From assembly GCF_003667705.1 (NCBI RefSeq), contig NZ_CP033019.1:3410001-3474000 (forward strand): 64,000 nucleotides of DNA, in the 5' to 3' direction. Below the pieces are notes generated by a model that was not told the origin of the DNA, made no database searches, and saw only the letters and a list, made by a program, of their open reading frames with translations. Within the stretch, counting starts at the first letter, position 1. Every line of letters starts with the position of its first letter. This DNA comes from Janthinobacterium agaricidamnosum (GTDB taxonomy: Bacteria > Pseudomonadota > Gammaproteobacteria > Burkholderiales > Burkholderiaceae_D). The position numbers were made by a program, and so were the translations under genes. Of the stretch, positions 59,292 through 64,000 are shown in pieces.

Positions 59292-60158
59292 ATGACCAAT
59301 ACCACAACCATCACCATGAACCTGATCCTGCAGGGTCTCGACGGCGATAGCGCGCGCCTCGAACGCATCGCCGCGCTGGCCGCACCCACGTCCGTCACGC
59401 GCCTCGGTCCGAATGCCGTGCGCTGCGAGCAGATCGCCTATTCGCCAGCCCTGCGCCCCACCATCGAAGTGGCGGCCCAGGCGGCGCAGCTGGACGCGAC
59501 CTACATGATGGGCCAGCGCGAACTTGCCGAATTCAAGCTGGTGGCGATGGACATGGATTCGACGCTGATCACCATCGAGTGCATCGATGAAATCGCCGAC
59601 ATGCAAGGCCTCAAACCGCAAGTGGCGGCCATCACGGAAGCGGCCATGCGCGGCGAACTCGATTTCGCGGCCAGCCTGAAGCAGCGCGTGGCCCTGCTCG
59701 AAGGCCTCGATGCCTCGGCCCTGCAGCGCGTCTACGACGAGCGCCTGAAACTGTCGCTGGGCGCCGAGAAGATGCTGGCGGCCGTGCAGGCGGCCGGCCT
59801 GAAAACCCTGCTGGTATCGGGCGGTTTTACCTTCTTCACCGAGCGCCTGAAAGAGCGCCTCGGCCTCGACTACACGCACGCGAACGAACTGCAAATCGTT
59901 GACGGCAAGCTGACGGGCAAAGTCTTAGGGGGCATCGTCGACGCCGAGGAAAAACAGCGTACGGTGGAACGCGTGTGCGCGGAGATGGGCATTTCCCCAT
60001 CGCAGGCCATCGTCATGGGCGACGGCGCCAACGACTTGAAAATGATGGGCATCGCCGGCCTGTCCGTGGCCTTCCGCGCCAAGCCCGTGGTGCGCTCGCA
60101 GGCCGACGTGGCGCTGAACTTTGTGGGACTCGATGGCTTGCTCAACGTCTTGAGCTGA
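59292..60158 (+). CDS. serB: Phosphoserine phosphatase SerB
   Basis: A 288-residue HAD phosphatase performing the last step of serine synthesis. An N-terminal ACT-like domain (about 1-75) precedes the catalytic core with VAMDMDSTLI (nucleophile Asp87, Asp89), the substrate Glu in ECIDEIAD, LLVSGGFTFFTE (motif II) and MGDGANDLKMM (motif IV). It follows mfd by 31 bp and may share its transcript. Confidence 0.96.
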   Translation: MTNTTTITMNLILQGLDGDSARLERIAALAAPTSVTRLGPNAVRCEQIAYSPALRPTIEVAAQAAQLDATYMMGQRELAEFKLVAMDMDSTLITIECIDEIADMQGLKPQVAAITEAAMRGELDFAASLKQRVALLEGLDASALQRVYDERLKLSLGAEKMLAAVQAAGLKTLLVSGGFTFFTERLKERLGLDYTHANELQIVDGKLTGKVLGGIVDAEEKQRTVERVCAEMGISPSQAIVMGDGANDLKMMGIAGLSVAFRAKPVVRSQADVALNFVGLDGLLNVLS

Positions 60159-60202
60159 GCCGGGGCCAAGTTCGCGGCGCCGGACGGTGCGCGCACGGTT
60201 GC

Positions 60203-60228
60203 ATAAGTTTGCTATATTGCAAACTTAT
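60203..60228. promoter_or_regulatory. AT-rich inverted repeat upstream of the DUF692 operon
   Basis: ATAAGTTTGC and GCAAACTTAT form a perfect 10-bp inverted repeat around TATATT, in an otherwise GC-rich gap of 90 bp. Its position about 20 bp before the first start codon suits an operator or a leader hairpin. No matching regulator is nearby. Confidence 0.5.
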
Positions 60229-60248
60229 ATTCACCCCGCCCGCCCACC

Positions 60249-60992
60249 GTGAAAGAACACCGCATGCCGCCATCGCTGCCAGAAGAAATACAACTCCACC
60301 TGGATGTGTTCGTCGCCGCCGCGCAAACGGCCTTCGGCGCCGACCTTGCCGCCGCCGTGCTGTTTGGCTCGGCCGCCGACGGCCAGTTGCGCGCCACGTC
60401 CGACGTCAACCTGCTGTTGCTGCTCAAGCGCTTTACGCCGCAGGCGGCCGATGCGCTGCGCGGCCCCTTGCGCCTGGCGCACGCCGCCATCGACTTGCAG
60501 GTGATGTTCCTGCTCGAGAGCGAATTGACGCAGGCCGCCGACGCCTTCGCCGTCAAGTTCGCCGACATCATCGCGCGCCACCGCGTCCTGCTGGGCAATG
60601 ATCCTTTCGCCAGCCTGCACACGAGCCGCGATGCCGTGCTGCGCCGGCTGCGGCAAGTGCTGCTGAACCAGCAGGTGCGCATGCGCGAACGCTATATGCT
60701 ATTGAGCCTGAATGAAGAACAGCTGGCCGGCGCCATCGCCGACGCCGCCGGTCCCTTGCGCTCGGCCGCCGCCTCGCTGGCGCAGCTGGAGGGCAAGTCT
60801 GCGCTGTCCGGCAAGCAGGCGCTCGAAGCGTTTGTCGACCAGCTGGGCGAACCGTCGCTGCACGCAGCCTTGCAAGCGATGTCGGCGGCGCGCGAAACGG
60901 CGCGCCTGGCGCCGGGGCAAGCCCTGCCCGCCTTCACCAGCCTGATGACGATGACCGAACGCCTGCGCGAGCACGCGGAGCAGATGCGGTGA
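60249..60992 (+). CDS. Nucleotidyltransferase-like protein with altered active site
   Basis: A 247-residue protein. Residues about 18-120 resemble the minimal nucleotidyltransferase fold (AAVLFGSAADGQLRATSDVNLLLL). The catalytic pair usually GSxxxG...SDxDL appears here as SDVNL, so the second metal-binding Asp is Asn; the later IDLQVMF supplies a possible third Asp. The rest is helical, with a C-terminal coiled-coil-like end. The start may be GTG at 60249 or ATG at 60264; neither has a strong ribosome binding site. It overlaps the next gene by four bases. The role is unknown. Confidence 0.7.
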   Translation: MKEHRMPPSLPEEIQLHLDVFVAAAQTAFGADLAAAVLFGSAADGQLRATSDVNLLLLLKRFTPQAADALRGPLRLAHAAIDLQVMFLLESELTQAADAFAVKFADIIARHRVLLGNDPFASLHTSRDAVLRRLRQVLLNQQVRMRERYMLLSLNEEQLAGAIADAAGPLRSAAASLAQLEGKSALSGKQALEAFVDQLGEPSLHAALQAMSAARETARLAPGQALPAFTSLMTMTERLREHAEQMR

Positions 60993-61915
60993 ACGGTCTC
61001 AATCCCTTTGACTGGAGCGGACCGTGGTTCCTGCTGGCCTATCTGATCTTCGGCGCGCTTGTGTACTACGGCGTGCGCGAGCTGCTGATCCGCCAGGAAT
61101 TGCGCAATCCGCATGCCCAGCTGACACTCGCCGACGATCCCTACCGCATCGCCTTCTTGCGCGGCGGCGCCCTCGAAGCCGTGAAGATCGCCGCCATCGT
61201 GCTGGTCGACCGCGGCTTGCTGCGCGCCGATGGCCCGCTGCTGGAAACGGCCAGCGCCGACAGCCTGCGCTTCGCCAGCCACGACATCGAACGCGACGTG
61301 CTGCGGCTGTACCTGGGCCGCCAGGGCCATAGCAAGGAACTGGCCGTGCAGGCCGGGATGCTGCCATCGTGCCGCGCCTACCAGGAGACCTTGACGCAGC
61401 AGGAATTGCTGGTCGGCCCGCCGCTGCTGCGCCGGCGCGAACGCATCACCTGGGCCGCGCACTGGCTGCTGGTGACGGTGGCCGGCGTCAAGGCCGTCAT
61501 CGCCATCAGCCGCCAGCACTACAACCTGCTGTTCCTGGCAGTCCTGCTGGCGATTTTTCTCCTCATGCTGCGCGGCCTGCGCACCCAGGCGACCAGCTGG
61601 AGCGCGCAGCGGCTGCTGACCGACTTGCGCATGCTGTTTGGCCGCCTGAACATGCGCTCGGCGCGCCTGCAGGCAGGCAGCAGCAGCGCGGACATGGCAC
61701 TGCTGGCCGCCATCTTCGGCATCGGCGCCCTGCCCTTGTCCGTGTACGGATATGTCGCCGAGCTGTACCCGGCGCCCCGGCACAGTTCGGGCGGCGACTC
61801 GTCGTCCGGCGGCACGGGCGACTCGGGCGGCTCTTCATCGGGCGGCGACGGCGGCGGTGATGGCGGCGGCAGCGGCTGCGGCGGGTGCGGCGGTGGCGGC
61901 GGCTGTGGCAGTTAG
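60989..61915 (+). CDS. TIGR04222-type membrane protein with Gly/Ser/Cys-rich tail
   Basis: A 308-residue membrane protein. Hydrophobic segments lie at about 12-28, 155-168, 178-194 and 235-258. The N-terminal globular region (AFLRGGALEAVKIAAIVLVDRG) matches the TIGR04222 domain, which is known to occur with low-complexity tails and DUF692 neighbours. From residue 265 the tail is almost only Gly, Ser and Asp and ends GSGCGGCGGGGGCGS, with three Cys within 10 residues. The start is GTG inside the upstream stop codon, and the DUF692 gene starts 11 bases before this gene ends. The tail is a candidate substrate for that enzyme. Confidence 0.85.
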   Translation: MNGLNPFDWSGPWFLLAYLIFGALVYYGVRELLIRQELRNPHAQLTLADDPYRIAFLRGGALEAVKIAAIVLVDRGLLRADGPLLETASADSLRFASHDIERDVLRLYLGRQGHSKELAVQAGMLPSCRAYQETLTQQELLVGPPLLRRRERITWAAHWLLVTVAGVKAVIAISRQHYNLLFLAVLLAIFLLMLRGLRTQATSWSAQRLLTDLRMLFGRLNMRSARLQAGSSSADMALLAAIFGIGALPLSVYGYVAELYPAPRHSSGGDSSSGGTGDSGGSSSGGDGGGDGGGSGCGGCGGGGGCGS

Positions 61916-62759
61916 CCAGGCAAGCGCGCGCGACCGCGTCGGCCTGGGCTGGCGCGGCGAACTGGCCGCCGGCATCCTGTCCCACCTGGCGCGGATCGAC
62001 GTGCTGGAAGTGATCGCCGACGATTACTACCATGCCCCGCGCGCCGGCATCGCCGCCCTGCGCCGCCTGGCGCGCCAGGTGCCCGTCAGCCTGCACGGCG
62101 TGGGCATGGGGCTGGCCTCGACGATACCCGCCGACCCGCGCCGGCTGCAGGCGATGGCGCGCCTGATGAAGGCGGTGCGGGCGGAATCGTGGTCCGAACA
62201 CCTGAGCTTTGTGCGCGCCGGCGGCATCGAAATCGGCCACCTGGCGGCGCCGCCGCGCACGCCGCTCAGCGCCGCCGGCGCCGTCGCCAATATCGCGCTG
62301 GCCACGCGCATCGTCGGCAGCGCGCCGCTGATGGAAAACATCGCCACCCTCGTCGCCCCGCCGGCCAGCACCATGGACGAAGCCGAGTGGCTGGCGCGGA
62401 TTATCCATGGCGCGCAAGTGCCGCTGCTGCTCGACCTGCATAATCTGTATGCGAACGCCGTCAATATTGGAGAGCGGCCGGAACAACTGCTGCTGCGCCT
62501 GCCGCTGGACAGGGTCGGCGCCGTGCACCTGAGCGGCGGCCACTGGATCGCTGCGCCGGGCGGCGGCCAGCGCCTGCTGGACGACCACCTGCACGACGTG
62601 CCGCCCGAAGTCTTCGCTTTATTGACCCTGCTGGCGCGCCATGCACCGCAACCGTTGACGGTGATCGTCGAACGCGACGGCAATTACCCGTCGTTCGGGC
62701 ATGTGCTGGGCCAGCTGGAGCTGGCGCGCGCGGCCTTGCGCGCGGGGCGTGGCGCATGA
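61905..62759 (+). CDS. DUF692 family protein (MNIO-type multinuclear iron enzyme)
   Basis: A 284-residue TIM-barrel protein of the DUF692 family, whose studied members are multinuclear non-haem iron oxidative enzymes that modify Cys-containing peptides. VGLGWRGELAAGIL begins the family domain; metal-ligand candidates are VSLHGVGMGL (His), the acidic Glu of MENIATLV, LLDLHNLYAN (Asp/His), VHLSGGHW and the C-terminal VERDGNYPS (Glu). The GTG start is chosen because the frame upstream is the low-complexity tail of the previous gene read in another frame. It overlaps both neighbours, so the operon is tightly coupled. Confidence 0.88.
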   Translation: MAVSQASARDRVGLGWRGELAAGILSHLARIDVLEVIADDYYHAPRAGIAALRRLARQVPVSLHGVGMGLASTIPADPRRLQAMARLMKAVRAESWSEHLSFVRAGGIEIGHLAAPPRTPLSAAGAVANIALATRIVGSAPLMENIATLVAPPASTMDEAEWLARIIHGAQVPLLLDLHNLYANAVNIGERPEQLLLRLPLDRVGAVHLSGGHWIAAPGGGQRLLDDHLHDVPPEVFALLTLLARHAPQPLTVIVERDGNYPSFGHVLGQLELARAALRAGRGA

Positions 62760-63013
62760 GCTCTCCCGCACTGGAAACCTATCTGGCCAGGCTGTACACG
62801 GACGACGCCGTGCGCGAAGCCTTCCTGCTCGCGCCCCGCGCGCAAGCCTTGCTGCACGGCTTGTCGCCGCAGGAAGCGGACGCGATGGCGGCGATGGACC
62901 GCGTCGGCCTGCAGATGGCGGCGGCCAGCTATCGCGCCAAGCGGGCCGGGCACGGTAGCAGGGCCACGCCGGCGCAACCCTGGTGGCGCCGGCTGCTGGC
63001 CGCCTGGACCTGA
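62756..63013 (+). CDS. Small helical partner protein of the DUF692 enzyme
   Basis: An 85-residue protein whose ATG overlaps the DUF692 stop (ATGA). The segment LYTDDAVREAFLLAPRAQALLHGLSPQEADAMAAMDRVGLQMAA has the look of small helical domains found with DUF692 and related RiPP enzymes, which present the substrate. No Cys is present, so it is not itself a Cys-rich substrate. The basic C-terminus may bind nucleic acid or membrane. The assignment as a partner is from position only. Confidence 0.75.
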   Translation: MSSPALETYLARLYTDDAVREAFLLAPRAQALLHGLSPQEADAMAAMDRVGLQMAAASYRAKRAGHGSRATPAQPWWRRLLAAWT

Positions 63014-63017
63014 CCGC

Positions 63018-64000
63018 CTACATCTGCCACAGCCGCAGCGGCAGCAAGCCCCACCAGGCCAGCACCAGCAGCAGTTGCAAGGCCGCCAGCAAGGCCACCC
63101 AATCCCATTTCGCCCACGAGCCCGCCTCGGCCGCCGTACCGCGGCTGCGCCAGCAGCGGGCCAGGCCGAACGCCGTGGCCAGCGGCAGCGCGCCCGTCGC
63201 CAATGTCAGCAGCACGCTGGCCACGGTGACGTCGCCCAGGCGCAGATAGGACTGGAAATAGAAAAACGGCAGCGGCAAGAGCAGCGCCAGCAGCGACAAC
63301 AGGGGCGCGAACAGATGGTCGCCCCGTCCCAGGCTGCGCAGCGCGGCGCGCCAGACGCCCACCACCAGCACGTACAGCAAGCCGGCGGCACCCAGGGCCA
63401 GGCTGCCCCACAGCACCAGCATGCGCAGCATCGACGCGCGCTCGTAGCTGCGCAAGCCGTCGCTGAGCACATGCTTGCCATCTTCCTGCATCAGCACATG
63501 CGACGCGGTGCTGCGGTCGCTGGCGCGGAACAGCAAGCCGCCCACCGGTTCCAGCTCCTTCGGCTCCCCCTGGAACGGGATCAGGAACAGCGATTCGCCA
63601 TCCCATTTGAGGCGCGTAAAGCCGAAGACGGCATCGACCCAGGCCATGCTGGCCATGGCGCTGGGCGACGGCACGTAGACGCCCTGCCAGTTTTCCACCG
63701 TGGGCGCGGGCGTGCCCTGCGGGGCCGGCGCGCGCAGGGGCAGTTCCAGGTCGCGCAGCAGCAGGCGGTTGAAGCGTTCATAGTCGGCCCGCTCCGCATC
63801 CGTGTTGAAGGCCACGAAGAAGGCGCTGTCCTGCTCCGGATAGATGCACAGCATGGCGCGGAAACCCACGGCCGTGCCAGGGTGGCAGGCGCCCACGACA
63901 TTGTGGCGGTCGCGCACGGCCAGCGCCAGACCGTGGCCCGTCGCCAGGCCCGCCTGCGCCGCATCCGTGCCGGCCGGTTCGGACAAGGCGCCCATCAGGG
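63018..64000 (-). CDS. Membrane-anchored serine hydrolase (beta-lactamase-like), C-terminal part only
   Basis: The right edge cuts this gene; about 327 C-terminal residues are visible. The beginning of the visible part (GHGLALAVRDRHNVVGACHPGTAVGFRAMLCIYPEQDSAFFVAFNTD) matches the end of the serine beta-lactamase/class C-like catalytic domain. A soluble segment follows, then about four C-terminal membrane helices. The Ser-x-x-Lys and Tyr-x-Asn residues lie outside the window. Such proteins act on peptidoglycan or esters; the substrate is unknown. Convergent with the small DUF692 partner gene (4-bp gap). Confidence 0.75.
   Translation of the reverse strand, partial: LMGALSEPAGTDAAQAGLATGHGLALAVRDRHNVVGACHPGTAVGFRAMLCIYPEQDSAFFVAFNTDAERADYERFNRLLLRDLELPLRAPAPQGTPAPTVENWQGVYVPSPSAMASMAWVDAVFGFTRLKWDGESLFLIPFQGEPKELEPVGGLLFRASDRSTASHVLMQEDGKHVLSDGLRSYERASMLRMLVLWGSLALGAAGLLYVLVVGVWRAALRSLGRGDHLFAPLLSLLALLLPLPFFYFQSYLRLGDVTVASVLLTLATGALPLATAFGLARCWRSRGTAAEAGSWAKWDWVALLAALQLLLVLAWWGLLPLRLWQM

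Follow-up and report, generated by a model that had tools for sequence, protein, structure and literature searches.

A conserved TIGR04222-MNIO operon of Janthinobacterium agaricidamnosum and its putative membrane-tethered, cysteine-modified tail

Introduction

The window analysed here is a stretch of 64,000 nucleotides of Janthinobacterium agaricidamnosum (contig NZ_CP033019.1, positions 3,410,001 to 3,474,000), and near its end lies an operon of four genes. They encode a nucleotidyltransferase-like protein, a TIGR04222 membrane protein with a Cys-containing tail, a DUF692 (MNIO) enzyme and a small partner protein. The operon is real, conserved and of a published kind. According to our comparison of sequences, the tail of the membrane protein is very probably modified by the MNIO, which would give a membrane-tethered and perhaps metal-binding tail. 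New here is an SbtM-like radical S-adenosylmethionine (radical-SAM) enzyme that replaces the MNIO beside TIGR04222 in another class of Pseudomonadota. We regard this replacement, by an unrelated enzyme tied to the same ring and on the same tail, as the strongest evidence here for the putative product of the tail.

As the sequence-only reading of this DNA had supposed, the TIGR04222-DUF692 pairing is known. Antoine et al. (2025; PMC12452194) proposed TIGR04222 tails as MNIO substrates for a subset of the family and left the modification and its role open; the product of such clusters is an open question in print. More than 1,000 Cys proteins lacking a signal peptide are encoded before MNIO genes, and 40% of them are TIGR04222 proteins. 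Selected tails are Ser/Gly-rich with Cys, and more than a quarter have no C-proximal Cys; one third of the TIGR04222 genomes have no MNIO genes. At least 10% of the TIGR04222-MNIO clusters code for PME-type 2 partners, and many appear to be partnerless (PMC12452194). The operon in the window resembles these clusters in the gene pair, in the C-proximal Cys-rich Gly/Ser tail and, for some of them, in the short partner. It differs in that an overlapping small open reading frame (ORF) follows most of the linked MNIO genes in our collection. The available part of PMC12452194 gives no count of tail Cys by MNIO linkage and proposes no product; SbtM is absent from it, and 'radical SAM' occurs in its references only.

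The operon and its tail cysteines

The four genes lie on the forward strand and overlap by 4, 11 and 4 bases in this order; genes and overlaps agree exactly with the sequence-only reading. Its two family assignments also hold: TIGR04222 is above the NCBIfam cut-off, and PF05114 (DUF692, now MbnB_TglH_ChrH) is far above the gathering score of 25 bits (scores in Table 1). TIGR04222 genes were collected by a family search, and not by way of the MNIO, from 294 genomes of the window's family, 398 of its phylum, 159 of Actinomycetota and 249 and 150 of two actinomycete orders. Of the 294, 23 have TIGR04222 over the cut-off. As an MNIO gene lies downstream in all 23, the operon is not a chance arrangement.

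The DNA around part of the matches was scored with purpose-built profiles, which gave 365 TIGR04222-bearing ORFs. Rows were counted for loci that came from the TIGR04222 searches, had the genome noted and were not cut by the locus end; duplicates were removed, and 169 genomes are represented, for each of which the presence of an MNIO was judged from the locus or from a search of the genome. The rows comprise 123 genes directly upstream of an MNIO gene, 26 with an MNIO within 3 kb or otherwise placed (18 with at least two tail Cys), 68 with no MNIO near and 10 with too short a flank (eight with at least two tail Cys). The count leaves aside 80 loci ascertained through the MNIO, though the genome of one of them (L103) is included via its TIGR04222 match, and genomes G394 and G434, in which the genes run to contig ends. 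Sub-cut-off TIGR04222 matches (e.g. L027-L030, L044-L048) are omitted, and weak actinomycete matches with ...GGGGGGGGGGSW tails are outside the count. The actinomycete loci are the best-scoring 30 per search and about every second remaining match, which is not a random draw.

At least two tail Cys are present in 122 of the 123 adjacent genes and a single Cys in the other one, against at least two in 24 of the 68 genes with no MNIO near (Fisher p 1.4e-24); the definition of a tail Cys (G/S/C-rich surround, last 90 residues) was chosen after the tails had been seen. A TIGR04222 gene beside DUF692 with no tail Cys was sought, since the sequence-only reading had named such genes as the case against it, and none was found among the 123. 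The association is thus near exact when read from the MNIO (a TIGR04222 gene beside one has tail Cys), but it does not hold in reverse. Of the 24 Cys-tailed genes with no MNIO near, 14 have a non-bufferin MNIO elsewhere in the genome; 'bufferin-type' is our label by score alone, for an MNIO of at least 324 bits against PF05114. Counted by genome, Cys-tailed TIGR04222 is found in 129 of 133 genomes with a non-bufferin MNIO, in 5 of 8 with only unlinked bufferin-type enzymes and in 6 of 28 in which no MNIO was found. The strict rule that Cys tails occur only with an MNIO is rejected by these six genomes. The predicted covariation of tail Cys count with DUF692 presence is not exact. The counts are strongly clustered by lineage, and the independent pairs are too few for a phylogenetic proof of covariation.

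In the last 60 residues of the MNIO-adjacent proteins, Gly follows 479 of the 539 Cys, whereas the Gly background is 41%. In tandem TIGR04222 arrays ahead of one MNIO gene (L273, L275, L277, L285, L304, L306), the MNIO-adjacent copy is Cys-tailed and some distal copies are not. A group of Pseudomonadota genes (L076-L081) has CGGCG-type tails, and no MNIO or other maturase was recognised in about 11 kb around them.

A radical-SAM enzyme in the place of the MNIO

Among the Pseudomonadota outside the window's family, TIGR04222 is over the cut-off in 13 genomes. No MNIO was found in the surrounding DNA of any of them, three of these stretches ending at the gene or soon after it. In 7 of the 13 no MNIO was found at all, two of the seven genomes being only 77% and 80% complete. 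In two of these seven genomes (loci L082 and L083), the GTG start codon of a radical-SAM/SPASM gene lies 3 bases past the stop of a CGGCGG-tailed TIGR04222 gene. The best NCBIfam match of the two proteins is TIGR04082 (SbtM, thio(seleno)oxazole maturase), with 114.5 and 142.3 bits (E 5.6e-33 and 2.1e-41), and the next-best family is the 'ACGX system' radical-SAM.

Six of the 48 genomes of this class, the one Pseudomonadota class that holds radical-SAM cases, have TIGR04222. TIGR04082 was searched in 34 of the 48. Scores of 20 to 80 bits are a common radical-SAM background, as below-cut-off matches occur in 41 of 52 genomes and in 11 of 14 controls; for this reason only a set of orthologues was used. 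Four genomes carry this set, and all four are TIGR04222 genomes with no detected MNIO. The members share 38-66% identity with each other and at most 28.4% with the other radical-SAM proteins compared (alignments >100 residues), of which two pieces of about 50 residues reach 39-42%. In G394 the first codons of the radical-SAM contig spell GCGGGGD and end in a stop that lies 3 bases ahead of the ATG, and the TIGR04222 gene runs off the end of another contig. In G434 both genes are at contig ends. The remaining two TIGR04222 genomes of the class, G477 and G342, both lack an SbtM-like enzyme of this set. Tail Cys are absent in G477, whereas the TIGR04222 gene of G342, at a contig end, is Cys-tailed.

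A radical-SAM protein of G330 (L377, 123 bits) was considered as a fifth case and rejected, with 27-28% identity to the linked four and no TIGR04222 gene recognised upstream. A search of a plasmid collection for further radical-SAM pairs gave eight records, three of them mycofactocin maturases by record name alone. In an alphaproteobacterial sample of 289 genomes, TIGR04222 is over the cut-off in G542 only. The enzyme swap is not mentioned in the open-licence literature searched, mostly by titles and the starts of abstracts.

SbtM converts a Cys substrate to a thiooxazole in vitro (review, PMC11002830), and the characterised MNIO-PME1 pairs make 5-thiooxazole (PMC13097082). The thiooxazole sites of the fontiphorin peptide are in Cys-Gly (PMC13097082), as is the 5-thiooxazole of bulbicupramide, which its authors assigned tentatively (PMC12538549). 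Bufferins, oxazolin, fontiphorin and bulbicupramide ('captophorins') have an MNIO that acts on Cys-Gly, as we propose for the operon, and their products are reported to bind copper (PMC12538549, PMC13097082). Their precursors are small and their partners are DUF2063 (PME1) proteins, whereas the operon has a polytopic membrane protein as putative substrate, a partner that does not match DUF2063 and an MNIO of a separate clade. Taken with the Cys-Gly context, the radical-SAM replacement favours a membrane-anchored thiooxazole tail, perhaps a metal-binding one.

The MNIO enzyme

The His, (Glu/Asp)-His, Glu, Asp, His, Asp-X-His and Glu positions of the operon MNIO are common to MbnB (7dz9). They are invariant in a five-sequence alignment and are shared with 3bww, TglH (8hci) and MbnB (7dz9). 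We take these His, Glu and Asp residues to be the iron ligands.

The same genome has two further MNIO genes with 348 and 328 bits against PF05114, far above the score of the operon MNIO. In the MNIO tree (FastTree, with long-branch warnings), calculated from 93 of 227 domains (all those of Pseudomonadota and one in four of the others), a branch sets apart the 23 TIGR04222-linked enzymes of Burkholderiaceae, with that of the window among them, and another branch the 24 unlinked bufferin-type enzymes. In the seven genus members with no TIGR04222 match, every MNIO scores at least 324 bits and none is close to 200. DUF2282 and DUF2063 have no match in the six proteins scanned at positions 59292-63995 of the window, which include the four operon proteins, and the operon therefore lacks the marks of a bufferin system.

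The small partner protein

The partner is helical in its AlphaFold2 model (predicted local distance difference test, pLDDT, 86). Its nearest folds are those of Os1348 and SonA (leader/borosin-binding domains; structures 6lk7 and SonA), with Foldseek probabilities of 0.96-0.98 and E-values of 0.2-0.4, which are not significant. A weak sequence match to the Os1348/NHLP-type family (E 8e-4, 19.4 bits against a cut-off of 40) points the same way. What sets the partner apart from the leader domains of precursors of ribosomally synthesized and post-translationally modified peptides (RiPPs) is that it carries no fused Cys core peptide and that its gene follows the MNIO gene. Neither the Pfam and NCBIfam profiles nor Foldseek found it to be a relative of DUF2063 or TglI. 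Its position, its helices and the lack of a DUF2063 match would suit a PME-type 2 partner, a class marked by structural resemblance to 3dee or TglI; the 50 of 64 Foldseek matches listed include no 3dee or TglI chain, and have Os1348 and SonA in their place. In an alignment of 16 relatives across two phyla, columns of L, F, K and R are invariant and one of D is nearly so; searches of Pfam and NCBIfam with five relatives gave no convincing match.

An ATGA or GTGA overlap that opens a frame of at least 50 codons is found at 161 of 194 stops of linked MNIO genes and at 2 of 68 stops of TIGR04222 genes with no MNIO near, and such frames may include spurious ORFs in GC-rich DNA. Unlinked MNIO stops (e.g. 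L049-L069) have it at 14 of 31, where the median frame is 256 codons, against 119 after linked MNIO genes. DUF2063 partners are reported to be of the former length.

Cys is absent from the window partner, whose C-terminus is basic and contains Trp. In 134 of 145 partner ORFs the final 20 residues include four or more Arg/Lys, compared with 27% of other segments, and 73 of 145 have Trp in addition to the basic end, compared with 10%; the starts of these 145 ORFs were taken nearest to a 4-base overlap, which favours that overlap, and the 161/194 count is free of this choice. The basic tail may be membrane-seeking, bringing the MNIO to its membrane substrate. Alternatively, it may bind the acidic tail of the substrate. 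The tails of the 123 MNIO-adjacent proteins are indeed acidic, with 10 K+R against 189 D+E over the last 35 residues.

The TIGR04222 protein and its tail

The TIGR04222 protein of the window consists of a first putative membrane span, a soluble domain (residues ~46-140), two further spans, a borderline hydrophobic segment (~233-257) and a Gly/Ser/Asp/Cys tail (~264-308) that ends in ...GGGDGGGSGCGGCGGGGGCGS. The helices are read as membrane spans from hydropathy. The mean pLDDT of the AlphaFold2 model is 75, and residues 264-308 are below 50. The fold search gave no meaningful PDB match (best E 0.64, probability 0.10), and it did not confirm the winged-helix-like look of residues 46-110 in the modelled secondary structure.

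The three Cys of the window tail are within about 15 residues. The ending CGGC(G)nCGS is found in 20 of 20 genus members with TIGR04222, in which only the length of one Gly run varies. In 16 members with an identical 12-residue ending, the first Cys is TGC in eight and TGT in eight, and the last Ser is AGT in ten and AGC in six; as these endings were picked for an identical peptide, synonymous differences are the only kind possible among them. The differences indicate that the DNA of the endings had time to vary.

Several sub-threshold TIGR04222 relatives (L190, L191, L193-L195) end in GGGGGGGGGGSW with at most one Cys, and are perhaps a sister family with another tail. On a Tsukamurella plasmid, a TIGR04222 ORF near mshC (L074:2034-3965) has two domains, with an Arg-rich stretch where the Gly tail of the first copy might be. 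It looks like two tandem genes fused by a frame change.

Proposed mechanism and alternatives

The following mechanism is proposed as the probable one. The TIGR04222 protein would be a membrane-anchored RiPP-like substrate, encoded in one operon with the MNIO that modifies it and with a minimal partner. The MNIO would oxidize the Cys of the tail Cys-Gly motifs, most likely to 5-thiooxazoles, before or during placement of the tail outside the membrane. The partner would bind the MNIO, and its basic, often Trp-containing C-terminus may keep the enzyme at the membrane. The product would be a tail that binds a soft metal, probably Cu(I), in other words a captophorin kept attached to the cell. The parts are of different strength. 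The tail is very probably the MNIO substrate, and its placement outside the membrane is likely. A thiooxazole is the probable product, a little less secure than the placement, and for metal binding by the modified tail the chances appear evenly balanced.

The sequence-only reading proposed modification of the tail in place to a displayed polymer of thiols or heterocycles. The first part is strengthened by the counts next to the MNIO, and a heterocycle is favoured by the radical-SAM swap, the chemistry being suggested by analogy. The word polymer is dropped because the window tail is short and has three Cys only. We tentatively go one step further, with somewhat less than even confidence: TIGR04222 may be a membrane scaffold for thiooxazoles with an exchangeable maturase, either an oxygen-using MNIO (Actinomycetota, Burkholderiaceae) or an unrelated SbtM-type radical-SAM enzyme (another Pseudomonadota class), both acting on a Cys-Gly tail.

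Several results weigh against this mechanism. The operon MNIO has 167.6 bits against BufB (NF050167, equivalog cut-off 310) and 120.1 bits against HvfB (NF003818, equivalog cut-off 360), and because these scores are well below the cut-offs, its chemistry may differ from that of BufB and HvfB. The radical-SAM proteins are distant from SbtM: those of L082 and L083 are below the TIGR04082 equivalog cut-off of 350, and they match positions 196-515 of the 516 of the profile, leaving the N-terminal part unmatched. There are four such cases only, all in one class. An adjacent SbtM-like gene is found in only two of the six Cys-tailed genomes with no MNIO. The other four (G448, G342, G1026, G1069) have no SbtM-like gene above 100 bits; the contig of G342 ends at its Cys-tailed gene, and G1026 and G1069 belong to the mycobacterial order. 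In five Cys-tailed genomes of Pseudomonadota, all MNIO enzymes are unlinked and high-scoring (bufferin-type). In the TIGR04222 tree, six independent pairs on supported branches differ in MNIO adjacency; on average 2.6 of them have tail Cys changing the same way, 0.1 the opposite way and 3.3 with no difference, which is not significant. Contrasts by MNIO presence per genome, with three to five pairs, gave no support ('any MNIO', 0.7 the same way and 0.4 opposite). Finally, the placement of the tail is no more than likely. The last hydrophobic segment is borderline by hydropathy (median best 19-residue Kyte-Doolittle mean 1.51, with 1.6 reached by 40% of the 123 proteins), and it is split into two short helices in the AlphaFold2 model.

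Among the alternatives, the one that survives best is that the MNIO modifies the tail Cys to another product, for example an oxazolone-thioamide or the outcome of a backbone or carbon excision. MNIOs of other clades do have other chemistry (table in PMC12452194), and the score against BufB leaves room for it. We consider it unlikely, since the Cys-Gly context is that of the studied thiooxazole substrates and the enzyme found as a replacement is SbtM-like.

Slightly less probable still is that the Cys tail binds metal or forms disulfides alone, while the MNIO acts elsewhere, for example on the partner or on a residue other than Cys, and the genes are co-inherited for other reasons. The six Cys-tailed genomes with no MNIO found agree with this, as does the resemblance of the partner to a RiPP-precursor leader domain, and some MNIOs modify Asp, Asn or Phe (PMC12452194). 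Against it, all but one of the 123 MNIO-adjacent genes have at least two tail Cys, the window partner offers no Cys, and the radical-SAM swap keeps the tail, with no partner gene recognised after the radical-SAM gene of L083. That a Cys-tailed subfamily merely travels with the MNIO by lineage history, with no enzyme-substrate link, is very improbable: the independent contrasts are few and not significant, but the gene order is common to two phyla, the MNIO and the next gene share start-stop overlaps, the tail Cys are kept in all 20 genus members and a second, unrelated peptide-type maturase stands in the same place.

The proposed mechanism, with a thiooxazole tail, can be tested. The natural enzyme swap leads to a prediction for the product, namely that each Cys loses 4 H and that the tail absorbs near 305 nm and binds Cu(I), and it provides two enzyme systems for such a test. 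If the reading with an exchangeable maturase is true, two unrelated enzyme families arrive at one peptide ring on a shared substrate family, and a captophorin can be a membrane-held protein instead of a peptide. If the prediction for the product holds, metal binding by thiooxazoles would extend beyond small precursor peptides, as a trait of displayed membrane proteins in many actinomycetes.

Other features of the region

Table 1. Features of the operon in the window, and the radical-SAM genes at other loci
Feature	Location	Strand	Remarks
Nucleotidyltransferase-like protein, 247 aa, first operon gene	60249..60992	+	Polbeta / MntA-type matches weak, below cut-offs
TIGR04222 membrane protein, 308 aa	60989..61915	+	NCBIfam TIGR04222 65.1 bits, cut-off 43
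C-terminal motif GSGCGGCGGGGGCGS, presumed modification site	61868..61912	+	Three Cys, each followed by Gly
DUF692 / MNIO enzyme, 284 aa	61905..62759	+	PF05114 200 bits; GTG start within the end of the TIGR04222 gene
Small partner protein, 85 aa	62756..63013	+	Helical, leader/borosin-binding-domain-like; ATGA overlap with MNIO stop
SbtM-like radical-SAM genes accompanying Cys-tailed TIGR04222	L082:4123-5175, L083:4012-5052; also L376, L379	- (L082, L083)	

A homologue of the nucleotidyltransferase-like protein is encoded upstream of TIGR04222 at 22 of the 23 Burkholderiaceae loci, and at the exception (L007/L091) the contig starts. No homologue was found outside the Burkholderiaceae loci by tblastn (E 1e-4), many of those loci having short flanks. 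The protein of the window reads GSAADG...SDVNLL, with Asn in place of the second Asp of the usual DxD motif. Downstream of the operon, a convergent gene (63018-63995, - strand) reaches the window edge; in its product, hydrophobic segments come after a region that weakly matches the end of a beta-lactamase-type domain.

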